From Methanobacteriota archaeon (lineage in GTDB: Archaea > Thermoplasmatota > Thermoplasmata > Methanomassiliicoccales > UBA472): DNA of 36,730 nucleotides. Shown in pieces: positions 4,459-33,339 of this stretch. Location: positions 1 to 36,730 of the forward strand of contig JAAYDU010000007.1 of assembly GCA_012729095.1 (NCBI GenBank), written 5' to 3'. The position numbers and the translations under genes were made by a program. The number at the start of each line of letters is the position of its first letter. Positions within the stretch are counted from its first letter, which is position 1. Under the pieces are notes generated by a model. The model was not told where the DNA came from and made no database searches. It saw only the letters and a list, made by a program, of their open reading frames with translations.

Positions 4459-6174
4459 TCATACCCGCGAGTCACGGCTAAGGACCTCGCGGACCTCCTT
4501 CATGACCTTGTCCGGGTTCTTGTAGTAGGTGGAGATTATCCTGGCGACCTGGCGGTAATGGGTGACGTCGATCTTCTTCATGTACTCGAGAATATCGATG
4601 CGCCGCCTCCATTCCCTCTCGATCTCCCTCGGGGACCAGCTCTTGACCGTGCGTACCTTCTCGAAAATGTACGAGTGGCCGCTGTAGTTGAACGAATCGT
4701 CGGCCGGGTTCCAGGTGAACACGGAGTTGGTGATCAGCTCGCCGGTCTCCGGGTCCATGCCCACTATCTCCGTAAGGGACTTCACCCGCCTGGTCATCTT
4801 GGTACCCACCTTGACCTGGGCCTGCAGCATGACGACGTCAAGGGCGGTTATCAGAGCCCGGGGCAGGTTGATGGGATCGTTCTCCATCCTGTGCACCATG
4901 GCCTGCACGTCCTCAGCGTGGAAGGTGGAATAGGATATCGTCCCGGTGGCCATGGCCTGGAAGACGACATACGCCTCCTTGCCGCGCACCTCTCCTACCA
5001 TCAGGTACTGGGGGCGTTGCCTCAATGCCGCTGTCAGCAGGTCGTACATGTCCACCGATCCGGCGGAAGCGCTCTTCCTTCCTCCGAACGATTCCCTGGT
5101 AAGCCCGGGGATCCAGTTCTCGTGCGGGAGGTTAAGCTCCCTGGTGTCCTCTATGCTGATGATCTTCATCTGCGGCGGAATGAAAAGCAGCACCGCGTTG
5201 AGGGTGGTGGTCTTTCCGCTGGCCGTGCCTCCGCACACCAGCATGGAGCTGCCGAACTCGGTGGATATCCAGAGATAGGCCATCATCTCCGTGCTCATGG
5301 TCTTGAAGCGCAGCAGATCCACCGGGGTGAAGGGGTTGTCCTTGAACCGTCTGATGGTGAACGACGAACCGCGCTTGGTGACATGCTTGCCCAGCGTGGC
5401 GTTCAGCCTGGACCCGTCCGGAATGGTGGCGTCCAGCAGGGGCTCGGCCACCGATATGTGCTTGCCGCAACGCTGAGCCAGCCATACCACGAAGGAGTCC
5501 AGCTCCTCGTCGGATTCGAAGCGCACGTTGGACTTTATGGAACCGTACTTGCGGTGGAATATGTACAGGGGGATGCGCACCCCGTCGCAGGAGCAATCCT
5601 CCACGCTGGGGTCGATCATCATCACGTCGATAGCCCCGTACCCGATGAAGTCGCGGCGCAGGTAGTAATGGATGCGCTCCCTGGACTCCATGGTCAGGTT
5701 GACGCCCATCGTGCTCAGCAGCTCATCGGTGACCGCGCGCAGTATGCTCTCCTTCTCCCGGTCCAGCTTTCCCTCTGAATTTTTTATGGTGAGGACGACG
5801 CTGTTCTTCAGCATCTCCAGCAGTATGCTCTCGTCCTCAGAAAGCATGGGCTCGATGACCTCGTACAGGTACTCCGAGGAGATGTTGTCGAACTTGATCC
5901 TCACATAGGAATAGGGCTCAAGGATCTTGGATATCTCCACCTCGTCCACATAGGACTCGGCGATCTTGGGCACATCGGTGATGTTCCCCTTCAGCACGTC
6001 ATCGCTGGCCTTGCTGGAAGGGACCATGACCCGTACCGGGTCCTTTGACATGCGATGCACCAGCTCCATATAGCGGTCCTTGAAGGTGATCTTCTTGCTC
6101 TTCTCGATCTGCAGGTTCCCCTTCTCGATAAGCTGATCGAGGTCCTTCAACGGTTCACTTTCGATCATGGCCAT
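4459..6174 (-). CDS. Type II/IV secretion (FlaI/TadA/VirB11-like) ATPase, paralog A
   Basis: 571 aa; Walker A GGTASGKTTTLN, IEDTRELNLPHENW, Walker B-like LMVGEVRGKEA, HAED box. Confidence 0.93.
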   Translation of the reverse strand: MAMIESEPLKDLDQLIEKGNLQIEKSKKITFKDRYMELVHRMSKDPVRVMVPSSKASDDVLKGNITDVPKIAESYVDEVEISKILEPYSYVRIKFDNISSEYLYEVIEPMLSEDESILLEMLKNSVVLTIKNSEGKLDREKESILRAVTDELLSTMGVNLTMESRERIHYYLRRDFIGYGAIDVMMIDPSVEDCSCDGVRIPLYIFHRKYGSIKSNVRFESDEELDSFVVWLAQRCGKHISVAEPLLDATIPDGSRLNATLGKHVTKRGSSFTIRRFKDNPFTPVDLLRFKTMSTEMMAYLWISTEFGSSMLVCGGTASGKTTTLNAVLLFIPPQMKIISIEDTRELNLPHENWIPGLTRESFGGRKSASAGSVDMYDLLTAALRQRPQYLMVGEVRGKEAYVVFQAMATGTISYSTFHAEDVQAMVHRMENDPINLPRALITALDVVMLQAQVKVGTKMTRRVKSLTEIVGMDPETGELITNSVFTWNPADDSFNYSGHSYIFEKVRTVKSWSPREIEREWRRRIDILEYMKKIDVTHYRQVARIISTYYKNPDKVMKEVREVLSRDSRV

Positions 6175-6180
6175 ATAGCA

Positions 6181-7080
6181 TCACACAAACCTCAGCGCTA
6201 TCAGTCCCATCAACAACATTATGAAAGAATGGCGGAAACCGTTCGCTATCCTGCCATCCTGCAGCACCCCTGCCAATATTCCATCCCCGAAGGCGTGGAT
6301 GACCACCGAGATGAAGAATATCAGGTTGATCTGGGGCACCACGTCCGATTGCACCTGCACTGGTATGCTCGCGCCGATGTTCTCGGTACCCTCCGATATC
6401 GAGGAACCGGCCTTGACCATCTCGGGCAGGAAGGTGGAGTTCAGGATGAATATCGTGGCCAGGAACACGGCGAACGCCACGTAAATGACCACGGTATAGG
6501 TGGACATGGCTATGGAGCGCTCGTTGCGGTCGAGCAAGGTCTCGCGGGCGTCGTGCGCCACCATGTTCAGCACGTCCGCCACGTTCCCCCCCGCCTCATT
6601 GGCCTTTATCACTATGGTGGTCATGCGCCTCACCAGGGGCGTGTCCACCCGGTCCACGAACAGCTTCAGGGCATCGGTTGCCGGAACTCCCCAGTCGATC
6701 TGGGCCGCCATGCGCTGTATCTCCGGAGTTAGCCGGCCATACCTCCCGCGGGAAGACACCTTGATCGAATCGGCCAGGGTCATGCCGAACCGGCCTCCCT
6801 CGGAAACGTCGCGCAGGAAGTCCGGAAGCCTGGACTCTATCTCGATGATCTTCTTGTGCTGATAGCTGGTGTAGAACCCGTAGGGGCCGCACATGGCCAT
6901 CAGGCCTATGGCCACCCAGTCTATCCACTCCAGGCCGGTCTCGAAACCCTCTATGGCGTCGATCACGCCGATAACCAGGCACAGGACAAGGCCCACGATA
7001 CCCACGATGAACAGCGGTTTGCTGTAATCGTTCTTCTTGAGGTTCAGTTGTTCTATGTCCAACATCTTTTCGTCAGTCAT
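6181..7080 (-). CDS. T2SSF/TadC/FlaJ-like pilus platform membrane protein
   Basis: 299 aa; 'LPDFLRDVSEGGRFGMTLADSIKVSS' and 'TPLVRRMTTIVIKANEAGGNVADVLNMVA' T2SSF-like repeats with C-terminal TM segments; directly between secretion genes. Confidence 0.85.
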   Translation of the reverse strand: MTDEKMLDIEQLNLKKNDYSKPLFIVGIVGLVLCLVIGVIDAIEGFETGLEWIDWVAIGLMAMCGPYGFYTSYQHKKIIEIESRLPDFLRDVSEGGRFGMTLADSIKVSSRGRYGRLTPEIQRMAAQIDWGVPATDALKLFVDRVDTPLVRRMTTIVIKANEAGGNVADVLNMVAHDARETLLDRNERSIAMSTYTVVIYVAFAVFLATIFILNSTFLPEMVKAGSSISEGTENIGASIPVQVQSDVVPQINLIFFISVVIHAFGDGILAGVLQDGRIANGFRHSFIMLLMGLIALRFV

Positions 7081-7089
7081 ATCAGGACC

Positions 7090-8133
7090 TCACATCGTGG
7101 ACTCCTTGGTCGTGTTCCAAATGAAGAAGATGAAACCGAACTGGGAGAACGGTATCATCAGCCCCACCACCAGGTACAGCAGCAGAATGGTGGTGTCCGA
7201 GTTCCCTCCCGCGCCCGGCACTATGGCCATGATGGCCATGATGACCACCAGGAACAGGGGGAAGGCCACCACCACTGTGACGAACGTCTCCGCCATAAGC
7301 CCCAGCGTTTCCAGCTGCGACTTCATCTCCAACTTCGCTTCCTTCTCGAACTGATCGGCCTTCTGCAGGAAATATGGTTTCAGCTGCCCTCCGGATGTGG
7401 AGGTGGTCACCACTCCCTGCAGGAACTCCTGGAACCGCGTCGAGGGGCTCCTTTGGGCGGCCCTGTTTATGGCGGTGAGTATGTCCGTGCCCAGGAGCTC
7501 CGTGTCCCTGGTGATCCATTCCGCCTCGCTCTTGATCTCCCCGTATATCGGCTGTCGGGCCAGCTCCTTGAATATGGTGTCAATGTTCACGTCGGCGCTA
7601 GCCATGGCCGAGATGAAGCTCATAGCCGCCCCCATGCGCTTGTTTATGTCCCGCCCCCTGGTCTTGGCCTTGGAACCGGGCAGGGCCCCGAGCACCACGT
7701 AGGCCAGGACTATTGGCAGCACTATCATGCCCACGGTGGCCGCGGCCACCATGCCCGCGCCGATCCCCAGGAAGGCTATCAGTATCCCTCCGAACAGGGC
7801 GCCCAGGACGCCAGTGAGGACTCCGACCAAGAGGGTGGTCATCCAAACGTAGGCGGTGTATTCCTCGGGCCTCAGTCTCATGTGGGCCTGCATGAGGGAA
7901 AGTTCCAGCCGGGGATTGGGCTTCATCCGCCTGACCACCGCTTTCCCTATGGTCCTCCAGCAGAACTCCTGGTAAGGGGTAAGCTTGACGTAATCGGGCA
8001 CCACGCCCTCGGGCAGCTTGACCACCCTCGGCCCCGCGTCCTTGGAATGCTTGGGGGCGGCGCTTTTGGTGCGCAGGTAGGACTTCTTGGTGGAGTCCAT
8101 GCGGGTGAAAAGGTCCGTCTCGCCAGCCATCAT
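7090..8133 (-). CDS. T2SSF/TadB/FlaJ-like pilus platform membrane protein
   Basis: Start taken at ATG 8133 or 8130 (overlaps upstream stop), not the ORF-track start at 8385. T2SSF-like 'GAAMSFISAMASADVNIDTIFKELARQPIYGEI' and 'FQEFLQGVVTTSTSGGQL', TM clusters on both sides. Confidence 0.85.
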   Translation of the reverse strand: MMAGETDLFTRMDSTKKSYLRTKSAAPKHSKDAGPRVVKLPEGVVPDYVKLTPYQEFCWRTIGKAVVRRMKPNPRLELSLMQAHMRLRPEEYTAYVWMTTLLVGVLTGVLGALFGGILIAFLGIGAGMVAAATVGMIVLPIVLAYVVLGALPGSKAKTRGRDINKRMGAAMSFISAMASADVNIDTIFKELARQPIYGEIKSEAEWITRDTELLGTDILTAINRAAQRSPSTRFQEFLQGVVTTSTSGGQLKPYFLQKADQFEKEAKLEMKSQLETLGLMAETFVTVVVAFPLFLVVIMAIMAIVPGAGGNSDTTILLLYLVVGLMIPFSQFGFIFFIWNTTKESTM

Positions 8134-9875
8134 TTCACCTCCATCGCCGCCAGGTCCGCGCGTAACCTGGCCAGGGTCTTCTCGTGGTCCTTGTAATAGG
8201 AGTTGACGATGTTCCATATCTCCCGGTGGTCGCGCACGTCCTTCTTCACGAGGTAGTTCATCACTTCCACCCGGCGGTCGAACTCGGACATCATCTCGTC
8301 GTTGGTCAGCGACCTCATCTCCATGATCTTGTCGAACAGGAAGGCGTGGCCCTTGAAGATGAAGCGGTCTGTGGCGGGGTCCCATTCATACACCGTGTTG
8401 GTGATGAGCTCGTTCGTCTCCGGCTCGTACCCCACTATCTCCACGATCTGCTTCATGCGGCGCACCATCTCGTTCCCCACCTTGACCTGGGACTGGATGA
8501 GCACATTTCGCAGGGCGGTCAGCAGTATCCTGGGGCAGTTGATGGGCGGGTTCTCCAGCCTGTTCACCATGCTCTTCACCGAATCGGCGTGCATGGTGGA
8601 ATATGTGCTGTGCCCGGTGGCCATGGCCTGGAACATGATGTAGGTCTCCTTGCCGCGGACCTCTCCCACGAGGATGTAATTGGGACGCTGCCTCAGGGCG
8701 GCCCTCACCAGGTCGTACATGTCTATCTCCCCGGCGGAACGCCCCTCGCTGTCCTTCTCTCCCACCCCGGTGCGCGTGGCGCCAGGTATCCAGTTCTCGT
8801 GCGGCAGGTTGATCTCTCGCGTATCCTCAATGGTGACTATCTTGGCCCCCGGGGGAATGAATATGGCCAGGGAGTTCAGGGCACTGGTCTTGCCGCTGGC
8901 CGTCCCTCCTACCAATATCATGGACTCCCCGTTCTCCACTCCCATCCACAGGTAGGCCATCATCTCCGGGCTGATCGTCTTGTAACGCAGCATATCGGTG
9001 GGGGTGAAGGGCTTGTTCTTGAACCGCCTGATGGTGAAGGTGGACCCCCGGGTGGTCACCTCCCGTGAATAGGTGGCCTGTATGCGATGGCCCTCGACCG
9101 TAGTGCCGTCCAGGATAGGGGAGGCCACCGATATCTGCTTCCCGCTGCGCTGGGCCAGGGTGACCACGAACGAGTTGAGGTCATCCTCGCTAGTGAATAT
9201 TATGTTGGAGCGTATGCTCTCCCATCTGCCGTGGAAAACGAACAGGGGCACGTTGTACCCATCGCAGGATATGTCCTCTATCAGGTCGTCCCGCATGAGC
9301 ACGTCCACCACGCCATGGCCTACGAAATCGCGTATGATGTAGTATCCAATGCGCAACTTGGTGACGTTCTCAGCCTTGATCCCTCTGGTGCGCATGAAGG
9401 AATCCACGCTCTCTCTTAGGTACTCCTCCTTGTCCAATCGGGTAAGCTTCTCCCATTCGTAACCGAGGGTCTTGTGCAAGGTATCCTTGACCAGATCGAG
9501 CAGGTCCTTCTCCTCCTCGCTCAATGTGGGTTCTATCACCTCGTACAGATACTCGCTGGTGGCGTTGTTGAAGGTGATACGGACATAAGCGAAGTCGGGA
9601 ACCACAGTGTATGTTTCCAGGACCTCCACGTCGATATCCTCTATCGGCGGTACGAAGGTGACCGCCGAGCCGGGGCGAACCGCTTCCGCTTCAGGCCTGA
9701 CCGGGACCCTGACCCTGCTGGCCCGGTTCGGGGTCATTCTCCTGAGGAGCTTGAGGTAGGCGTTCCTGGCCTTCTCGGCCCTGCCTATGGCCTCCCACTC
9801 CCTTTCCTCCGATATCGGAGTGCGGAACTCGCCATCCCCTTTATCGGTCCCCTTTGCAGCGTTCTCCATCCTCAC
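8130..9875 (-). CDS. Type II/IV secretion (FlaI/TadA/VirB11-like) ATPase, paralog B
   Basis: 581 aa; Walker A GGTASGKTSALN, IEDTREINLPHENW, ILVGEVRGKETYIMFQAMATGHSTYSTMHAD. Confidence 0.93.
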   Translation of the reverse strand: MRMENAAKGTDKGDGEFRTPISEEREWEAIGRAEKARNAYLKLLRRMTPNRASRVRVPVRPEAEAVRPGSAVTFVPPIEDIDVEVLETYTVVPDFAYVRITFNNATSEYLYEVIEPTLSEEEKDLLDLVKDTLHKTLGYEWEKLTRLDKEEYLRESVDSFMRTRGIKAENVTKLRIGYYIIRDFVGHGVVDVLMRDDLIEDISCDGYNVPLFVFHGRWESIRSNIIFTSEDDLNSFVVTLAQRSGKQISVASPILDGTTVEGHRIQATYSREVTTRGSTFTIRRFKNKPFTPTDMLRYKTISPEMMAYLWMGVENGESMILVGGTASGKTSALNSLAIFIPPGAKIVTIEDTREINLPHENWIPGATRTGVGEKDSEGRSAGEIDMYDLVRAALRQRPNYILVGEVRGKETYIMFQAMATGHSTYSTMHADSVKSMVNRLENPPINCPRILLTALRNVLIQSQVKVGNEMVRRMKQIVEIVGYEPETNELITNTVYEWDPATDRFIFKGHAFLFDKIMEMRSLTNDEMMSEFDRRVEVMNYLVKKDVRDHREIWNIVNSYYKDHEKTLARLRADLAAMEVK

Positions 9876-23419: not shown

Positions 23420-24604
23420 TCACTGCTTCGCCGGTTCTGCCGGGGCCTCTGGCTCGGTGACCATGGCTAGCATCTCAGAGACATCCATGACCTTGATCTT
23501 GGCCCCGATCTTCTTGGCCGCCTGCTGCATGTTCAGCACGCAGAACGGGCAGGTGGTGGCCAGTATATCGGCCCCGGTTTCCATGGCCTCCTTGACCCTC
23601 TCGACGCCGATGGCTGTGGCCATATCGTTGTACTGGCTCTTGTACCCGCCGCCAGCGCCGCAGCACCTGGAGTTCTCGCGTATGTTCTTCATCTCCACGA
23701 ACTCCACGCCCGGAATGGCCTTTATGACCTCGCGCGGCTCGTCGTAGACCTTGGCGTGCCGGCCCAGGTGGCACGGGTCGTGATAGGTGACCTTGGCCTT
23801 GAGCTCCTTGGTGAACTTCACCTTTCTGCTCTTGATCAGGTTGTTCGCGTATTGTGCGAAGTGGAGCACCTCGAACGTCGGGTGGGCATAGTACTTGCCG
23901 AAATCGTGCAGGATGGTCTTGTAGCAGCCCGCGCACGCGGTGACCATGGCCTTGGCCCCCATATGCTCCACGGTGGTTATGTTGTGCTCCGCGAATCTGT
24001 ACGTGAGGCCGGTCTGCCCCGTCCTGAGGGCGGGGGAGGTGCAGCACCACTCGTCACCCTCCATGATATTGGTGGAGACGCCGCAGCGGTTCAGGAACAG
24101 GACGCTGTCCCTGGCCAATCTCTGCGTGCGGTAGGATGCGGTACATCCGGCGAAGAACACCACGTCAGGGTTATCGGCCTTGGGGACGTCAGGATACCAG
24201 GCTCCCCTTTTGTCCCTGGGCTCACCGTACGGATTGCTGCCCGCCTCGAGGCGTTCCCTGATCTTAACGTGGGCGGGCATGGGGCCATGCCCGTTCTCGA
24301 TGCACCATTCCCTGACCTTCTCCCAGAATTCTGCGAAATCGATGCCCACGTGGCAAACAGTGGAGCACGCTGCGCACGTTGTGCACATGAACAGGGCGTC
24401 CACGAACTCATCGTCGATCTCGACCTTTCGGCCCAGCAACTTGTCCAAGGCGGTGCGCTTGCCCAGCTGGGAGATGTAGAACACCTTTCCCCTGGGGGTG
24501 ACGGACTCCCAAGGCGTCTGCTTCCACGTCTCGCAGACGTGAATGCAATATCCGCATTGAAGACAAGCTTGAACCTCTCTGTCGATGTTCGGTAATTTGA
24601 CCAT
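23420..24604 (-). CDS. HdrD-like (Fe-S)-binding CCG-domain protein
   Basis: Start at ATG 24604 (ORF track is over-extended). Two 4Fe-4S motifs (CLQCGYCIHVCE, CTTCAACSTVCH) and two complete CCG units (C..WCCTSP..CAGC; C..RCCGAGGG..CPFC). Confidence 0.9.
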   Translation of the reverse strand: MVKLPNIDREVQACLQCGYCIHVCETWKQTPWESVTPRGKVFYISQLGKRTALDKLLGRKVEIDDEFVDALFMCTTCAACSTVCHVGIDFAEFWEKVREWCIENGHGPMPAHVKIRERLEAGSNPYGEPRDKRGAWYPDVPKADNPDVVFFAGCTASYRTQRLARDSVLFLNRCGVSTNIMEGDEWCCTSPALRTGQTGLTYRFAEHNITTVEHMGAKAMVTACAGCYKTILHDFGKYYAHPTFEVLHFAQYANNLIKSRKVKFTKELKAKVTYHDPCHLGRHAKVYDEPREVIKAIPGVEFVEMKNIRENSRCCGAGGGYKSQYNDMATAIGVERVKEAMETGADILATTCPFCVLNMQQAAKKIGAKIKVMDVSEMLAMVTEPEAPAEPAKQ

Positions 24605-24775: not shown

Positions 24776-25288
24776 TCATCCCTCCAATATCGGCGAGTAT
24801 CCATACCAGGCTCCCTGGTCGCGCAGCATGCGCATGCTGTCCTCAAGGAGCTTGCGATGGCCCTCCTCGATATCGGCCAGGCTCTCCAAGAGCTTCCTTG
24901 TTCCCGGCTCCTCCACGATCAGAGCGGCGCCCCGGTACATTTTTGAGGAAGATATCTCCACCTGTATCCCGACCTCCAACGCCTTTATCTCGTCCTCCAG
25001 GGTCATGCACCTGTCTGGAGGGAAGGGGAAAGCGTTCTCGGGAACGATGCCCAGCAACGTTCGGGCAGGGGCCACGCTGCCCGGTTCCACGTCAGGGGCC
25101 ATGCGGCGCATTTCCCGCTCCACCTGCTCCCTGTGCGTTTCCTCGTCCCTTCCCAAACCCCTCAGCAGGGCGGCGCCGTTCTCGTCGCTCACGCACTCGC
25201 TGAAACGGCGATAGAACTCGATACCGAACTTCTCCACGCTCAGCGCGGAACTCAAGATCGACAGCTCAAGACTGCCAGGATCGCTCAT
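24776..25288 (-). CDS. Rubrerythrin/ferritin-like diiron protein
   Basis: 'EKFGIEFYRRFSE', 'RDEETHREQVE', 'ALEVGIQVEISSSKMYRG', 'IEEGHRKLLE': four-helix carboxylate/ExxH pattern. Confidence 0.78.
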   Translation of the reverse strand: MSDPGSLELSILSSALSVEKFGIEFYRRFSECVSDENGAALLRGLGRDEETHREQVEREMRRMAPDVEPGSVAPARTLLGIVPENAFPFPPDRCMTLEDEIKALEVGIQVEISSSKMYRGAALIVEEPGTRKLLESLADIEEGHRKLLEDSMRMLRDQGAWYGYSPILEG

Positions 25289-25567: not shown

Positions 25568-27589
25568 TTGTTCGTCGACCAACTGTTCTTAGCCCTTATC
25601 GTTCTGCCCTTCGCAGGGGCCATTCTCGCGGCGACACTCAACGGCCACGCTAAGACCAGTGTCCGCATAGCCTTCACCGTCTCTTCCCTGTCGTCCCTCC
25701 TGGGCCTGGCCGTCGCATTCCTGATCTTCCTGGACGGTGAGATGCGATGGGAACTGCCTTTCTCGTCCCCTTTCGGCCCCCTCAGCTTCTACTTGGACAC
25801 CTTGGCGGCATTCTTCCTGGGCACGATATCAGTGGTGACCTTCGCAGTATCCGTGTACTCCTTCGGTTACGCAAACCATTACGAGGGGAAGTACCCGGTC
25901 GGCCTGCTGGGCGCCATGTTCAACATCTTCTTCTCGTCCATGGTCATGGTCGTCTCATCATCCAACGCCATCCTATTCCTGATCATGTGGGAGACAATGT
26001 CCCTCTCCTCTTTCTTTCTGGTCATATTCGAGCACCGTCAGGAGGGGACGGTGGGTTCCGGTCTGTTCTATCTCATCATGACCCACATCGGGACTGCGGC
26101 CATCGGCATGGGCCTACTGCTGATGTACGTCAATTCCGGTTCCTTCGACCTCTCCTCTTTCCCTGGGGCCGCCCAGGGCATGTCCGACGTTCTCCGTTCA
26201 GCGGTGTTCCTGCTGTGGCTGGTCGGGTTCGGGGCCAAGGCAGGAATCGTCCCGCTGCATGTCTGGTTGCCCATGGCCCATCCCGCGGCCCCCTCGAACG
26301 TCTCCGCGTTGATGTCCGCGGTCATGGTCAAGACCGCCATCTACATGCTCATCCGCTGCTGCTTCGGTCTCCTGGGCGTTCAGGACACCTGGTGGGGCAT
26401 CACCGTTCTGGCCATCGGCTGCGTCTCCGCTCTTCTGGGGGTGATGTACGCGCTCATCGAGAGCGACATCAAGAGGATGCTGGCCTTCTCCACCGTTGAG
26501 AACGTGGGTATAATGCTCATCGCCCTGGGCGTGGCCATGGTGTTCGGGTCGTACGGGCTGAAGGAGCTTGCCGGGCTGGCCCTGATCGCCTGTCTGATGC
26601 ACGTCCTCAGCCACGCGCTGTTCAAATCCCTCCTGTTCATGGGTGCGGGGAGCGTGCTCCTGGCCACGCACACCAAGGACATGGAGCGCCTGGGGGGATT
26701 GGCCAAGCGTATGCCGTACACCGGTGCCATGTTCCTCATCGGGGCCCTCTCCGCATCGGCCATACCCCCGCTGTCCGGGTTCATAAGCGAATGGTTGATA
26801 TTCCAGGCCATGCTGCAATCGTTCAGCATACCCGATGCCATGGTCAAGATACTGATAACCGTCGCGCTGGGCACATTGGCCATCACCGGTGCCTTGGCCG
26901 CCGCAGCCTTCCTCAAGGTCTTCGGGATAACGTTCCTGGCACGCCCGAGAAGCAGGGACGCCGATGAGGCCCGCGAGGTACCGAAGAGCATGCTATTGGG
27001 GATGGGGCTGATGGCGGCCCTTTGCGTGCTGGCGGGGGTGCTCTCCTTCGCCATCCTGCCCGGCTTGGACCAGGTATCCGCTCCCTTGGCAGGGGCCTCC
27101 ATAGCAGACAGCCTTGTGAACGGCATTGAGATAGTACCGACCGTCGGCGAGTTCTCCCAGGCGTCGCCCCCTCTGATCGCGGTCATCATCCTGGCGGTGA
27201 TGGGACTTGTCCTGACGCTGAGCCAGGCCTACGGCGGGCGTCGCAAGGTGGTCCGGGCGGACACATGGGACTGCGGGACACCCCTCACGGCCAGAACGGA
27301 ATATTCCGGGCGGGGATTCTCCAACCCGATCAACCGCATGTTCTCCTGGGTGTACCGCCCCATCCGCACCTTCCGGGCCACAAGGTCACCATCCCCTTAC
27401 ATCAGGACGGAAATGAGGTACACCAGCACCACCCAGCCCGTGTTCGAGAAATACCTGTACGGTCCCACCGAGGCCGGGGTACGGTGGGCCGCCAAAAAGA
27501 TCAGCGTCATACAGACCGGCAGCATACAGACCTATCTGGGGTACATCTTCGTGGTGCTGGTCCTTCTCCTGGTCGCCCTGAGGTTGTGA
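25568..27589 (+). CDS. HyfB/NuoL-like antiporter-type membrane subunit (Ehr complex); TTG start
   Basis: 673 aa; 'GFGAKAGIVPLHVWLPMAHPAAPSNVSALMSAVMVKTAIYML', HyfB-like C-terminal tail. Confidence 0.92.
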   Translation: MFVDQLFLALIVLPFAGAILAATLNGHAKTSVRIAFTVSSLSSLLGLAVAFLIFLDGEMRWELPFSSPFGPLSFYLDTLAAFFLGTISVVTFAVSVYSFGYANHYEGKYPVGLLGAMFNIFFSSMVMVVSSSNAILFLIMWETMSLSSFFLVIFEHRQEGTVGSGLFYLIMTHIGTAAIGMGLLLMYVNSGSFDLSSFPGAAQGMSDVLRSAVFLLWLVGFGAKAGIVPLHVWLPMAHPAAPSNVSALMSAVMVKTAIYMLIRCCFGLLGVQDTWWGITVLAIGCVSALLGVMYALIESDIKRMLAFSTVENVGIMLIALGVAMVFGSYGLKELAGLALIACLMHVLSHALFKSLLFMGAGSVLLATHTKDMERLGGLAKRMPYTGAMFLIGALSASAIPPLSGFISEWLIFQAMLQSFSIPDAMVKILITVALGTLAITGALAAAAFLKVFGITFLARPRSRDADEAREVPKSMLLGMGLMAALCVLAGVLSFAILPGLDQVSAPLAGASIADSLVNGIEIVPTVGEFSQASPPLIAVIILAVMGLVLTLSQAYGGRRKVVRADTWDCGTPLTARTEYSGRGFSNPINRMFSWVYRPIRTFRATRSPSPYIRTEMRYTSTTQPVFEKYLYGPTEAGVRWAAKKISVIQTGSIQTYLGYIFVVLVLLLVALRL

Positions 27590-27590
27590 A

Positions 27591-28517
27591 ATGCTGACAT
27601 CAATGGTCCAAGCCCTGCTCGTACTGGCGCTGTCCCCCCTCTTCACCGGACTGATCAGAAGGTCGAAGGCCTATTTCCAGGGCCGCCAGGGGGCGTCCGT
27701 GCTGCAGCCGTACCGGGACCTAGCCAAGCTGTTCCGCAAGGATTCCGTGCTGTCCCACGATGCTTCCTGGATCATGACCATCACTCCGTACGTGTGCATG
27801 ACCGCCGTGATCGCCGCCGCGCTGATGGTGCCCTTCATAACCGACAGTTCCCTGGGGTTCGTCGGCGACCTGATCGTGGTGGTCTATCTCTTCGGAACGA
27901 TGAGGTTCTTCATGGCCCTCGCCGGGCTGGACGCCGGATCGTCGTTCGGCGGCATGGGCAGCAGCCGGGAGATGACAGTGTCGGCCATAGTCGAGCCGAC
28001 CATACTGCTCTCCATATTCACCATGGCTCTGATATCCGGGACCACCGACCTTAGCGGGATATCCCGCAACCTGGCCACCAGCGGTCTCGACCTGGTGCGT
28101 CCCGCTCTGTTCCTGGCGCTCGCTGCCTTCTTCATATCCACCCTGGCCGAGAACGCCCGCGTGCCAGTGGACAATCCTTCGACGCACCTGGAGCTGACCA
28201 TGATACACGAGGCCATGGTCCTGGAGCATTCCGGCAAGCACCTGGCGCTCATGGAGTGGTCCAGCATGACGAAGCTCCTGCTATACGCGGTGATAATGGC
28301 CAACGTGTTCCTTCCCTGGGGCATAGCCACCGACCTTACCGCGATCGGGCTGGCCACCGGCATCGTCGCCATGTCGCTCAAGCTGCTGCTGTTCGGCCTG
28401 GCCATAGCCCTGGTGGAATCCTCAATGGCCAAGCTGCGCCTATTCCGACTGCCCAACCTGCTGACCGTATCCTTCTCGCTGTCCCTGCTGGCGGTGATAT
28501 CCTATTACATACTGTGA
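27591..28517 (+). CDS. HyfC/NuoH-like membrane subunit (Ehr complex)
   Basis: 'GRQGASVLQPYRDLAKLFRKD', 'AENARVPVDNPSTHLELTMIHEAMVLEHSGKHLALMEW'. Confidence 0.92.
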   Translation: MLTSMVQALLVLALSPLFTGLIRRSKAYFQGRQGASVLQPYRDLAKLFRKDSVLSHDASWIMTITPYVCMTAVIAAALMVPFITDSSLGFVGDLIVVVYLFGTMRFFMALAGLDAGSSFGGMGSSREMTVSAIVEPTILLSIFTMALISGTTDLSGISRNLATSGLDLVRPALFLALAAFFISTLAENARVPVDNPSTHLELTMIHEAMVLEHSGKHLALMEWSSMTKLLLYAVIMANVFLPWGIATDLTAIGLATGIVAMSLKLLLFGLAIALVESSMAKLRLFRLPNLLTVSFSLSLLAVISYYIL

Positions 28518-28526
28518 GGGACGAAC

Positions 28527-29186
28527 ATGGTGAACGATCTCAGCCTGGACACGATAAACGCCCTGGCCGCACTGATACTGCTGGCGGATTTCATGCTTGT
28601 GGCCAGTAGCCGCATGAGGTCCCTGACCCGCATATTCGCCCTGCAATCCCTGGCCATGGGGGGCCTGGCCGCCGTGGTGGCCTTCGAGACCGGGGTCGGG
28701 CACATATACGTGGTAGCGGTGCTCAGCATAGCGCTAAAGGCCGTGGTCATTCCCCGCTTCATAGACTACACCGCCGACAAGATACAGGTGAACCGGGAGG
28801 TGGAGCCCCTGGTCAAGATACCGGGGTCGCTGCTCATTTGCGCGGCCATCACCATGCTGGCGTACTTCGTCACCGAACCCATAATGGAACTGGGCACGGC
28901 CATAACCAGCAACTGCCTGGCGATATCGTTCGCCACCGTGCTGATAGGGATGTTCATGATGGTCTCCCGGAGAAAGGCCATCACCGAGGTCGTCGGTCTG
29001 CTGGTGGTGGAGAACGGGGTCTTCCTGGCCGCCGTGTCCACCACCTACAGCATGCCGATGGTCGTGGAGCTGGGCGTGTTCTTCGACATATTCGTGGGCG
29101 TCATCATAATGGGCGTGTTCGCCTTCCGCATCAACCGCACCTTCGAGACCGTGGACTCCACAGTGCTCAGGAGGCTGAAGGATTGA
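28527..29186 (+). CDS. HyfE-like membrane subunit (Ehr complex)
   Basis: 219 aa, position in operon; 'VVENGVFLAAVSTTYSMPMVVELGVFFDIFVGVIIMGVFAFRINRTF'. Confidence 0.88.
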   Translation: MVNDLSLDTINALAALILLADFMLVASSRMRSLTRIFALQSLAMGGLAAVVAFETGVGHIYVVAVLSIALKAVVIPRFIDYTADKIQVNREVEPLVKIPGSLLICAAITMLAYFVTEPIMELGTAITSNCLAISFATVLIGMFMMVSRRKAITEVVGLLVVENGVFLAAVSTTYSMPMVVELGVFFDIFVGVIIMGVFAFRINRTFETVDSTVLRRLKD

Positions 29187-30646
29187 TCGAGATCGCGCTG
29201 ATATCGCCAGCGGTCCTGGCCATAATCTGCCTTCTGCTAGGCCGCCACACCAGGGCCATAGAGGCCATCAGCGTGGCGGGGGCCGGGTCCCTGCTCGTGT
29301 CCGGGTCCTACCTGGCCTTCAGGACGTTCGATGAGGGGGCCATTGACGAGGGCATCTGGTTCATGGACCAGTTCAGCGGCCTTATGATGTTCATCATCGT
29401 TCTGATAGGGTTCCTGGCCGTGGTGTACTCCGTGCCCTATATGAGGCAGGAGATGGCCACCGGAGAGGTCGGCAAGAGGAAGGTCTCCTACTACTACGGT
29501 TTCCTGTTCCTTTTCATGCTCACCATGGTGATGGTGGTGGTCTCGGACAACCTGGGCATGGTCTGGATAGCGGTGGAGGCCACCACTCTGGTCTCCGCCT
29601 TCCTGGTGGGCTTCCACAACAAGGCGACCTCCCTGGAGGCCACCTGGAAATACCTGATAATCTGCTCCATAGGTATATCGCTGGCGTTGCTCGGAACGAT
29701 ATTCGTGTACGCCTCCTCGCTGCCGGTATTGGGGGAGGGCAGCGATCTTCACTGGACCTCCCTGATGGCCGTGGCCGGACAGCTGGACCCCGCCTTCCTG
29801 AAGATCGGTTTCGTGCTGGTCCTCATCGGTTACGGGACCAAGGCCGGTCTGGCGCCCATGCATACCTGGCTGCCGGACGCGCATTCCCAGTCCCCCAGCC
29901 CGGTGAGCGCCCTTCTGTCGGGCGTGCTGCTGAACTGCGCCATGTACGCCGTGCTTCGCTACCACATACTGCTCACCCACTCCCCTCTGGGAGGGGGGTT
30001 CAGCAGCGGCATGCTCCTTCTGTTCGGAATGCTGTCCCTGGGGGTCGCTGCCGCCTTCATCATCACCCAGAAGGACTACAAGCGACTGCTGGCGTACTCC
30101 AGCATCGAGCACATAGGCATAATCGCGATCGGTTTTGGTTTCGGAGGGTTCTGGGGTGTGTTCGGTGGATTGCTGCACATGCTCAACCACTCGCTTACCA
30201 AGGCCCTGCTGTTCTTTGGCGCAGGCAACGTGCTGCAGAAATATGGCACCAAGAACATCAGCGAGGTGCGGGGGGTGGGCCGAACGATGCCCTTCACCGC
30301 CGCTTTGCTGTTGCTGGGGGCCCTGGCCATTACCGGGTCCCCCCCTTTCAGCATATTCATCAGCGAGATCATGGTCCTTGCCGCGGGCATTGGCCAGGGG
30401 AGCTTCCTTCCCGTCATCATCTACTCAGGTATACTGGTGGTGGTGTTCGCCGCTTTCATGGGGCACGTCGTGAGGATGATATTCGGGGAACCTCCCCCGG
30501 GAATTGAAAAGGGAGAGATATCCAGGTCCGGGCTGCTGCCGATGGTGGCCCTGGCCGCCGCCATAATGATCATGGGGCTGTACATCCCTGGCCTGCTCGG
30601 GGACGCATTGAAGGAGCTGATCGGTCTGTTCGGAGGTATGGAATGA
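29183..30646 (+). CDS. HyfF/NuoN-like antiporter-type membrane subunit (Ehr complex); TTG start
   Basis: TTG overlaps the hyfE-like TGA; 'GYGTKAGLAPMHTWLPDAHSQSPSPVSALLSGVLLNCAMYAVLR'. ORF-track start 28838 belongs to an out-of-frame extension over the previous gene. Confidence 0.92.
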   Translation: MIEIALISPAVLAIICLLLGRHTRAIEAISVAGAGSLLVSGSYLAFRTFDEGAIDEGIWFMDQFSGLMMFIIVLIGFLAVVYSVPYMRQEMATGEVGKRKVSYYYGFLFLFMLTMVMVVVSDNLGMVWIAVEATTLVSAFLVGFHNKATSLEATWKYLIICSIGISLALLGTIFVYASSLPVLGEGSDLHWTSLMAVAGQLDPAFLKIGFVLVLIGYGTKAGLAPMHTWLPDAHSQSPSPVSALLSGVLLNCAMYAVLRYHILLTHSPLGGGFSSGMLLLFGMLSLGVAAAFIITQKDYKRLLAYSSIEHIGIIAIGFGFGGFWGVFGGLLHMLNHSLTKALLFFGAGNVLQKYGTKNISEVRGVGRTMPFTAALLLLGALAITGSPPFSIFISEIMVLAAGIGQGSFLPVIIYSGILVVVFAAFMGHVVRMIFGEPPPGIEKGEISRSGLLPMVALAAAIMIMGLYIPGLLGDALKELIGLFGGME

Positions 30647-32211
30647 GCGAGGACGGGCTGGAAGGTATCGTGAAGGAACTGCGGCGCGAGATCGGTGAGG
30701 ACCTGCGCCACTCCGGTCCATGGGACAGGGGGATGCAATGCGAGGTGGAGCGATCGCACCTTGCGGGGGCGGTCGGGACGCTGATCGCTAAGCACGGGGC
30801 GTCAATGGTCTCAATGCACGCCACCGACGACCGGCAATCCCGGGGGTCGTTCGCCCTTCACTATCTCCTGTCTTTCCCGTCCAAGCGCGAGCTGCTCATG
30901 CTTTCCGGCGAGACGGACGGCAGCTTCACCTCCCTTACCCCCCAGATCTACCACGCTAACTGGTACGAGCGGGAGGTGATGGACATGTTCGGCCTGGTGG
31001 CTACCGGTCATCCCGACCCCCGACCCCTGGTCCTCCACGATGGCTGGTACAAGGGCTCTCATCCTCTTCGTAAGCATATCGGCTGCGACGACGGGCTGGC
31101 GCCAGAGCGCCGTCGATACGAATTCAACGTCTTGAAAGGGGACGGGGTCTTCGAGGTCCCTGTCGGCCCGGTGCACGCGGGGGTCATCGAGCCCGGGCAC
31201 TTCCGCTTCTCCGCCGCCGGAGAGTCCATACTGAACCTGGAGGTACGCCTGGGATATGTGCACAGGGGCGTGGAGAAATGCCTGGAGGGGGCGCCCCCCG
31301 GCAGAGCTCTGCGCATGACGGAGAGGATATCTGGCGATAACGGGGTGGCGCACTCCCTGGCCTTCTGCCAGGCGTATGAGGCAGGCCATGACGTCCCTCC
31401 GCGCGCCCAGTACGCCCGTTGCATACTGGCCGAGCTGGAGAGAGTGTACAACCATCTGGGCGACATCGCCGGGCTGGCGTTGGACACCGCCTTCGCCGTT
31501 CCCGCCGCTGACATTTACGCCCTCCGGGAGGTCATGCTCGGCCTCAACGCCCGTATCACCGGTCACCGGATGCTATGGGGGGCGGTCACCCTGGGCGGGA
31601 CCCGGGACCTTCTGAGCGAGGCGGATGTGGACGACGTGCAGGGCACTCTCATGAAGGTTGGCAACGAGCTGCGCACCTCCGTCGAAAGGATGAGGTCCAG
31701 CCCCTCGTTCATGGACCGGGTGGATACCACTGGTATAGTGGAGGAAAAGGTCGCAAGGGACCTGAGGGTGGTAGGGCCGATCGGACGGGCCAGCGGCCAG
31801 GACCTCGATGTCCGGCGGGACCATCCCTACGAGGCCTATTCGAAGCTGAACTTCAGGGTGCCTCTGTTCAGGGAAGGCGATGTCAGCGCCCGCATGAACG
31901 TCCGGGTCCAGGAGGTCGACGAGTCCATTAGCCTGGTAATGGAGGCCCTGGACCGCATGCCGTCAGGCGGAGGTTCCAGCCGTCCAGGGCCGCCCCGGGA
32001 CGGGGTGCACGTCGGACTGGTCGAAGCTCCCAGCGGGGAGCTCGTCCACATCATACACACGGAGGGCGGGAAGGTCGTCCGTCACAAGGTCCGCGATCCC
32101 TCCTTCTGCAACTGGCCGGCGATACAGGAGGCGGTCCTCGGGGACATAGTGCCGGACTTTCCCCTGATAAACAAGAGCTTCAGCCTGTCCTACGCGGGCA
32201 ACGATCTGTAG
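30643..32211 (+). CDS. HyfG-like NuoC-NuoD fusion large subunit lacking Ni-Fe ligands (Ehr catalytic-subunit homolog)
   Basis: 'YHANWYEREVMDMFGL' (NuoC), 'LGYVHRGVEKCLEG' (NuoD); L1 reads ERISGDNGVAHS and L2 reads RDPSFCNW. Confidence 0.92.
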   Translation: MSEDGLEGIVKELRREIGEDLRHSGPWDRGMQCEVERSHLAGAVGTLIAKHGASMVSMHATDDRQSRGSFALHYLLSFPSKRELLMLSGETDGSFTSLTPQIYHANWYEREVMDMFGLVATGHPDPRPLVLHDGWYKGSHPLRKHIGCDDGLAPERRRYEFNVLKGDGVFEVPVGPVHAGVIEPGHFRFSAAGESILNLEVRLGYVHRGVEKCLEGAPPGRALRMTERISGDNGVAHSLAFCQAYEAGHDVPPRAQYARCILAELERVYNHLGDIAGLALDTAFAVPAADIYALREVMLGLNARITGHRMLWGAVTLGGTRDLLSEADVDDVQGTLMKVGNELRTSVERMRSSPSFMDRVDTTGIVEEKVARDLRVVGPIGRASGQDLDVRRDHPYEAYSKLNFRVPLFREGDVSARMNVRVQEVDESISLVMEALDRMPSGGGSSRPGPPRDGVHVGLVEAPSGELVHIIHTEGGKVVRHKVRDPSFCNWPAIQEAVLGDIVPDFPLINKSFSLSYAGNDL

Positions 32212-32222
32212 GTGGACCTCGA

Positions 32223-32957
32223 ATGATGCAAAGCATGCTGTTCAAGAAAAGGAGGACATTGTCCCTGCGGGAACTGCTGGACCAGCGTGTCGGCTGTCCC
32301 CTGGCCGACCCGCTGATATGCGACATGTGCGGCAAATGCTCCGAAGCTTGCCCGACCCAGGCGATCAGCGTGAGCGACAGGTGGTCGGTGGACCTGGGAA
32401 AATGCTTGTGGTGCGGGGACTGTTTGGAGACATGCGAGAAGGGAGCATTGTCCATGGCCGGCGGCTGCGAGGCCGCGGGCCGCAGGCAGGACCTCATTCT
32501 CTCTGCCGAGACCGAACGGTCGGCCTTGCGACTTAAGGATGAGACCAGAAAGGTGCTGGGCCGCTCCCTGGCCATAAGGGAGGTTGACGCTGGCTCGTGC
32601 AACGGCTGCGAGGTGGAGGTGAACTCCCTCTCGAACCCGATGTACGACCTGGAACGTTTCGGCATCAGGATGGTGGCATCCCCTAGGCACGCCGACATGC
32701 TGCTTGTGACCGGCCCGGTCACCCGGAACATGCTCCCGGCGCTGATGAAGACCTATGCGGCCACGCCCGAGCCCAAGCTGATCGCGGCCCTGGGCACATG
32801 CGCCATCTCCGGATGCCCCTTCGGGAACAGCTACGCCTCGGGCAAGGGGGTGTCGGACGTCCTGCCGGTGGACATATTCATACCCGGTTGCCCTCCGCAC
32901 CCCCGCACCATAATCATGGCGCTGCTCGAAGCGTTGGGGCGGCTGCAGGTCACTTGA
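32223..32957 (+). CDS. 2x[4Fe-4S] ferredoxin domain fused to NuoB/HyfI-like small subunit
   Basis: CDMCGKCSEACP and CLWCGDCLETCEKG, then SCNGCEVEVNS ... GTCAISGCPF ... PGCPPHPRTI. Confidence 0.92.
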   Translation: MMQSMLFKKRRTLSLRELLDQRVGCPLADPLICDMCGKCSEACPTQAISVSDRWSVDLGKCLWCGDCLETCEKGALSMAGGCEAAGRRQDLILSAETERSALRLKDETRKVLGRSLAIREVDAGSCNGCEVEVNSLSNPMYDLERFGIRMVASPRHADMLLVTGPVTRNMLPALMKTYAATPEPKLIAALGTCAISGCPFGNSYASGKGVSDVLPVDIFIPGCPPHPRTIIMALLEALGRLQVT

Positions 32958-33339
32958 CCACTATTACCGTGCAGGGAGAGTTGCGCACCACGTGCTCGGA
33001 CACGCTGCCAATGAGAACCCGGTCCAGGACCGTCTTGCCCGACGTCCCGACGATTATGGCCGAGGCGCCGACCCTTTCGGCCACGGCGATCGCGGACTCG
33101 GCGGGCGCCCCGGTCTCCAGCAGGGTGGTGGTCTCCAATCCCTGCTGTGTGGCCCTTTCCTTGATCTCCTCGAGATGCTTCTTGGCCTCCCCCACGGTAC
33201 CCTCCCGGTTCTCCTCGTGCCGGGGGCCTATGACGAAGACGACGTACAGCTCCTCGCGGTGCAGACGAGCATACTCCAACGCATAATCGACCGCCTTGGC
33301 CGTGTGCGCCCTGCCATCGGTTGCCAGAACAACGCTCAT
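32950..33339 (-). CDS. Universal stress protein (UspA family)
   Basis: 'MSVVLATDGRAHTAKAVDYALEYA', 'GASAIIVGTSGKTVLDRVLIGSVSEHVVRNSPCTVIVVK'. Confidence 0.93.
   Translation of the reverse strand: MSVVLATDGRAHTAKAVDYALEYARLHREELYVVFVIGPRHEENREGTVGEAKKHLEEIKERATQQGLETTTLLETGAPAESAIAVAERVGASAIIVGTSGKTVLDRVLIGSVSEHVVRNSPCTVIVVK

Follow-up and report, generated by a model that had tools for sequence, protein, structure and literature searches.

An Ehr complex of a Methanomassiliicoccales methanogen, with all four [NiFe] cysteines of its large subunit replaced

What does a membrane complex built like a hydrogenase do when the ligands of its metal centre are gone? The question is raised by a 36,730-nucleotide stretch of DNA (the window), contig C43 in an archaeal genome of 1.68 Mb that is 99% complete, carries mcrA and has its named relatives in Methanomassiliicoccales. 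Six co-directional genes at 25568-32957, separated by short gaps or overlapping (the TTG start of ehrD overlaps the ehrC stop), follow the order EhrA-B-C-D-L-S and encode HyfB-, HycD/HyfC-, HyfE- and HyfF-like proteins, a large subunit and a ferredoxin-NuoB fusion:

25568..27589, plus strand: ehrA, HyfB/NuoL-like antiporter subunit, 673 aa, TTG start (NCBIfam hydrogenase 4 subunit B, 710 bits, above cut-off)
27591..28517, plus strand: ehrB, HycD/HyfC/NuoH-like membrane subunit, 308 aa (PF00146; best PDB match 7z0s_D, HycD)
28527..29186, plus strand: ehrC, HyfE-like membrane subunit, 219 aa (NCBIfam HyfE family, 103 bits, under cut-off)
29183..30646, plus strand: ehrD, HyfF/NuoN-like antiporter subunit (NCBIfam hydrogenase 4 subunit F, 527 bits, under cut-off)
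30643..32211, plus strand: ehrL, fused NuoC-NuoD/HycE-like large subunit, 522 aa, without [NiFe] cysteines
32223..32957, plus strand: ehrS, two-[4Fe4S] ferredoxin domain (8 Cys) fused to a NuoB/HycG-like subunit (PF12838 and PF01058)

The antiporter channel residues Glu/Lys/Lys/Glu are retained in EhrA, and EhrD has Glu/Lys/Asn/Glu like HyfF (TM5 Glu, TM7 Lys, TM8 Asn, TM12 Glu). Alignment with HycG/HyfI shows that EhrS also keeps its proximal-cluster cysteines (C126, C129, C193 and C223). The same genome encodes an Fpo-like cluster on contig C39 and two group 3-like [NiFe] hydrogenase genes on C41 and C49. We found no group 4 hydrogenase in it, Ech included, the only PF00346 matches being ehrL and the FpoD-like gene.

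An earlier note on this DNA had reported, at 30643-32211, a hydrogenase-like large subunit in which all four Ni-Fe ligands are replaced. The frame is intact and its coordinates hold, as does the loss of the four cysteines, though one of the two motifs has to be moved:

31321..31356, plus strand: L1 site, ligands lost; ERISGDNGVAHS, residues 227-238, with S230 (31330-31332) and N233 (31339-31341), opposite HycE DRVCGICGFAHS
32092..32115, plus strand: RDPSFCNW, residues 484-491, taken for L2 in the earlier note; a conserved stretch equivalent to HycE RAATYANW, no ligand motif
32173..32208, plus strand: L2 site, ligands lost; KSFSLSYAGNDL, residues 511-522, the C-terminus, opposite HycE GSLDPCYSCTDR

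The earlier reading of L1 was right, with codons tct (31330, S230) and aac (31339, N233) confirmed. For L2, the letters RDPSFCNW are present, but profile, PDB and multiple alignments agree in setting them opposite HycE RAATYANW and complex I RTPSFAHL. It is the C-terminal KSFSLSYAGND that lies opposite HycE GSLDPCYSCTD; the HycE L2 motif DPCYSC (residues 529-534) falls on EhrL residues 514-519, S-L-S-Y-A-G, and the ligand positions are now S516 (tcc, 32188-32190) and G519 (ggc, 32197-32199). This placement comes from aligning E. coli HycE (7z0s) with a profile built on 28 relatives, and it recurs in a MAFFT alignment with HycE, HyfG, NuoCD, FpoD, three intact-motif Ech and about 25 other group 4 proteins. 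In the formate hydrogenlyase (FHL) structure, the terminal Ni ligand is Cys531, the earlier of the two cysteines in DPCYSC (PMC9474812). The replaced positions are thus S230, N233, S516 and G519, and in place of the group 4a patterns RxCGxC and DPCxxC the protein has RISGDN and SLSYAG. Because alignment with HycE, Ech and other group 4 proteins fixes both motif positions, a displaced cysteine pair elsewhere in EhrL is ruled out. Past the L2 region EhrL has no C-terminal tail for a HycI-type protease, where HycE has 32 residues; the missing tail alone is not decisive, since intact-motif Ech is tail-less too. With all four [NiFe] cysteines lost, the prediction that the complex should not make or use H2 is supported.

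Decay, which the earlier note had already discounted, and sequencing error are excluded as causes: the frame is open, dN/dS of ehrL against congeners is about 0.13-0.27, and the four-cysteine loss recurs in 34 of 34 diverse homologues. Judged from sequence comparison, the loss is ancient. Few parts of the protein are as well conserved as the former catalytic pocket: S230, G231, D232, S516, Y517, G519 and D521 are invariant across 51 EhrL sequences drawn from archaea and nine bacterial phyla, while position 233 varies (N/T/S/A/E/C). HycE Glu193, a proposed proton donor (PMC9474812), corresponds to the nearly invariant E183, and the canopy residue Asp529, called strictly conserved (PMC9474812), is S514 in the window protein, N or S in the family and D in a few members. 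At only three of the 118 columns conserved at 90% (P136Y, D145H and R464S) does the window EhrL deviate, fewer than in many homologues. The last of these is the position of the canopy arginine (HycE Arg478), present in nearly all homologues; codon 464 (32032-32034) reads AGC, Ser, which may reflect a genuine substitution or a wrong base in the assembly.

Where this protein belongs is clear from several directions. In a maximum-likelihood tree, 34 EhrL form one clade (support 100/99) with HycE/HyfG as its neighbours, and Ech, the other group 4 proteins and complex I proteins branch separately; on the sampled tree we did not see EhrL nested within active group 4 hydrogenases. NuoCD and FpoD are long branches of unsure exact position in this tree, and MbxL was not included. 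The clade contains three Nitrospira loci (L055, L080 and L101), and a Nitrospira Ehr has been named (PMC10284858). By sequence the best PDB match of EhrL is HycE (400 bits), which is also its best solved fold match (TM 0.91, 31% identity) for a single-chain AlphaFold2 model with pLDDT 88; the loops at the former site are of low confidence in the single-chain models (EhrL 176-188 and EhrB 191-208). An operon of NuoL-, NuoH-, HyfE- and NuoN-like subunits with a large and a small subunit, a group 4-type large subunit without the four Ni-Fe cysteines and a clade shared with named Ehr hosts together make the complex almost certainly Ehr; gene order, clade and ligand loss all agree with the assignment that the earlier note had offered. 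Ehr, the energy-converting hydrogenase-related complex, was reportedly described by Coppi in 2005 and by Marreiros in 2013.

Known Ehr have the same six subunits in the same order, a Hyf/Hyc-like membrane arm and none of the four [NiFe] cysteines; published descriptions of Ehr from Nitrospira, CPR bacteria, ammonia-oxidising archaea and others note missing CxxC motifs or missing cysteines. The window differs from other Ehr in its UspA neighbour, in the serine at the canopy arginine and in the fusion within EhrS, whose ferredoxin and NuoB parts are joined in the window genus and in family f2 and form two ORFs in many other archaeal relatives (32223-32957 versus loci L036, L039 and L128); no feature removes it from the class. 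An Ehr of unknown function had already been described from a Methanomassiliicoccales genome, MALP (PMC6147122), and the puzzle of the poorly understood acceptor therefore predates the present case. The window complex is a well-documented member of this known puzzle and no new kind of enzyme, and we found no biochemical result for any Ehr in the literature searched.

Closest by sequence, tree and fold are the group 4a hydrogenases 3 and 4 (HycE/HyfG) of formate hydrogenlyase, which share the NuoC-NuoD fusion and the HyfB-C-E-F-type membrane subunits. Ehr differs from them in lacking the CxxC motifs and the C-terminal protease tail, in the replaced Asp529 and in its EhrB loop, and the ehr operon contains no FdhF-, HycH- or HycI-like genes. 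A formate-oxidising Ehr coupled to formate dehydrogenase has been proposed for Margulisbacteria, with gene clusters there and in Saganbacteria in its favour (PMC6349859), and every Ehr subunit is more abundant on formate in Geobacter sulfurreducens proteomics (PMC7894505). The order, however, is described as lacking formate dehydrogenase (PMC6147122), and PF00384 molybdopterin oxidoreductases are absent from the window genome and present in only two of the 41 genomes searched. Because this genome has no such enzyme, we reject a formate dehydrogenase partner here and regard formate coupling as extremely improbable.

With the Fpo-like complex and respiratory complex I, Ehr shares the superfamily architecture, antiporter subunits and proximal [4Fe4S] subunit, whereas it forms a separate clade and the genome's own Fpo-like cluster lies elsewhere. 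The nearest functional analogy is MBS/Mbx of Pyrococcus furiosus, a group 4-derived, ferredoxin-linked ion pump that is not a hydrogenase, yet MBS/Mbx is much less similar to EhrL (163 versus 400 bits for HycE, a comparison by bit scores only).

A second signature lies in the neighbouring membrane subunit:

about 28164-28235, plus strand: Ehr-specific loop of EhrB, PVDNPSTHLELTMIHEAMVLEHSG, residues 192-215

This loop connects TMH5 and TMH6; its counterparts in FHL and complex I border on the catalytic subunit (PMC9474812). It reads P(V/F/I)D(N/D)PxTHLELTM(I/V)HE(A/G)MxLE(Y/H)SG in nearly all Ehr loci examined, with T198, H199, E201, H206, E207 and E212 invariant and T198-M209 the most conserved block of EhrB. 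HycD, HyfC, NuoH and other group 4 homologues mostly have PFDxxEAExEIxxGxxxEYSG, and the Ech counterpart is PYDVPxAHQELxSGPYxEYSG; compared with these homologues, the Ehr loop is three residues longer, and it carries two histidines. This change accompanies the ligand loss in EhrL. No earlier description of the loop or pocket motifs was met in the literature searched, which did not cover Marreiros 2013. We tentatively suggest, at somewhat below even confidence, that a substrate or a metal is bound jointly by S230, D232, S516, Y517 and D521 of EhrL and the His/Glu loop of EhrB (T-H-L-E-L-T-M-I/V-H-E), at a site that is neither [NiFe] nor quinone and is common to archaea and bacteria. If so, Ehr would add a further chemistry to the complex I superfamily, beside those of H2, quinone and MBS sulfur.

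A different occupant of the former [NiFe] pocket would be the headgroup of a quinone or other lipid carrier, which Ehr would reduce much as complex I does. Quinones are present in many Ehr hosts (Nitrospira, Methanoperedens and Desulfosporosinus), which counts for this possibility. So do the origin of the complex I quinone site from the same pocket (PMC9474812) and the genes for an undefined liposoluble carrier in Methanomassiliicoccales (Borrel et al., PMC4153887). Both quinone contacts of complex I, His38 and Tyr87 in Thermus Nqo4, are however missing from EhrL, which has I182 and G231, and the ND1-type loop of EhrB is unlike that of NuoH. The site is moreover invariant across hosts with different carriers or no known carrier, including the fermenter Ruminiclostridium papyrosolvens. 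A carrier reductase of this kind seems to us rather doubtful.

For the complex as a whole, we lean slightly towards an ion pump that is linked to ferredoxin and binds a non-H2 acceptor where the [NiFe] centre used to be, and no further, because donor, direction and acceptor are points that we infer. The frame for it is the Methanomassiliicoccales version of a complex I-like, Hyf/Hyc-type membrane complex whose [NiFe] centre was lost long ago. Reduced ferredoxin would pass electrons to the two [4Fe4S] clusters of EhrS and on through the proximal cluster in its NuoB-like half to an acceptor bound in EhrL beside the EhrB His/Glu loop, and the antiporter-like EhrA and EhrD would couple the transfer to H+ or Na+ translocation. 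The final use here may be heterodisulfide reduction, via HdrD or a membrane carrier; elsewhere, Ehr may run in reverse and yield reduced ferredoxin. In favour of this scheme are the 8 + 4 cysteines of EhrS, the antiporter residues, the EhrB signature and neighbouring genes of two kinds, 2-oxoacid:ferredoxin oxidoreductase/CODH-like and HdrD-like. Ferredoxin docking would not be universal, because EhrS lacks the ferredoxin part in Nitrospira and Methylomirabilis. It also counts against the scheme that about half of the relatives do without ehr, and that the HdrD-like gene is not tied to it.

The first kind of neighbour is found in nitrospirota. In one contig (L056, 188-4493), ehr is preceded by the alpha and beta genes of a 2-oxoacid:ferredoxin oxidoreductase and by two CODH-epsilon-like genes; about eight loci of this kind have related genes next to ehr. 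L056, L066, L078 and L114 all place ehr near genes resembling 2-oxoacid:ferredoxin oxidoreductase and genes for CODH/ACS epsilon-like proteins (PF02552). In the window itself, ehr is flanked by three genes:

23420..24604, minus strand: HdrD/TfrB-like protein with Fer4 and two CCG domains, divergent from ehr (PF02754, PF13183; NCBIfam TfrB, 246 bits, under cut-off; PDB matches are HdrB relatives)
24776..25288, minus strand: rubrerythrin-family protein, between the HdrD-like gene and ehrA (PF02915)
32950..33339, minus strand: UspA-family protein, 129 aa from ATG, in a frame open to 33402, convergent with ehrS (PF00582)

The HdrD-like protein is a candidate Ehr partner. In the window lineage, the two might form a ferredoxin:CoM-S-S-CoB oxidoreductase that works directly, alongside the Fpo-like complex; such a pair would be one particular form of the ferredoxin-linked pump. 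Most loci of families f1 and f6 have the HdrD-like and rubrerythrin genes in divergent orientation to ehr. The absence of HdrE from Methanomassiliicoccales, in which the Fpo-like complex is the proposed partner of HdrD, also counts in favour (PMC4153887, PMC10804542). On the other hand, the adjacency fails in family f2 and in one further genome (G011), Ehr is found in bacteria without CoM/CoB, and HdrD has another partner here, since the Fpo-like complex is also in the genome. In the ehr-less genomes the HdrD-like gene stands beside the same helicase. Because this pair occurs without ehr, the adjacency may be shared synteny and is weak evidence. An HdrD partnership of this kind appears unlikely. 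As an Ehr-specific gene HdrD is rejected, being present in all 101 relatives, with or without ehr.

The UspA-family gene is the most faithful archaeal ehr neighbour beyond the six subunits (L039-L051, L115-L133 and L211-L214). It lies 3' of ehrS in those Methanomassiliicoccales loci that reach that far, even where ehr is relocated, and also accompanies ehr in Methanoperedens. That constancy, together with the lack of known catalytic ligands, would suit a redox-dead Ehr that is only a regulated cation/proton antiporter, perhaps under its UspA neighbour. We consider this very unlikely: the window EhrS retains its proximal-cluster and ferredoxin cysteines, and a redox-dead pump would not need a highly conserved former catalytic pocket.

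The matter is of interest beyond this genome, as Ehr is widespread, occurring in methanogens, Methanoperedens, nitrifying Nitrospira, Methylomirabilis and Firmicutes. Residues to mutate can now be named, from the relocated L2, the invariant pocket and the loop signature of EhrB, and several candidate reactions are removed by the absence of formate dehydrogenase and Ech from the genome and of the quinone-contact residues from EhrL. The question of the Ehr acceptor thereby becomes testable.

Two further observations concern the surroundings of these loci. In family f6 (L128, 12869-17886; L129, L130, L131, L132 and L206), an Ech cluster with intact L1 (ERVCGICS) and L2 (DPCICCTDR) directly adjoins ehr and UspA, and in one genome without ehr (G026, locus L197) Ech occupies the ehr place, divergent from the HdrD-like gene. 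In the window, an ArlJ/FlaJ (TadC-like) membrane protein is apparently split into two adjoining genes (6181-8385) beside a FlaI-like ATPase (4459-6174), forming a type IV pilus-like locus.
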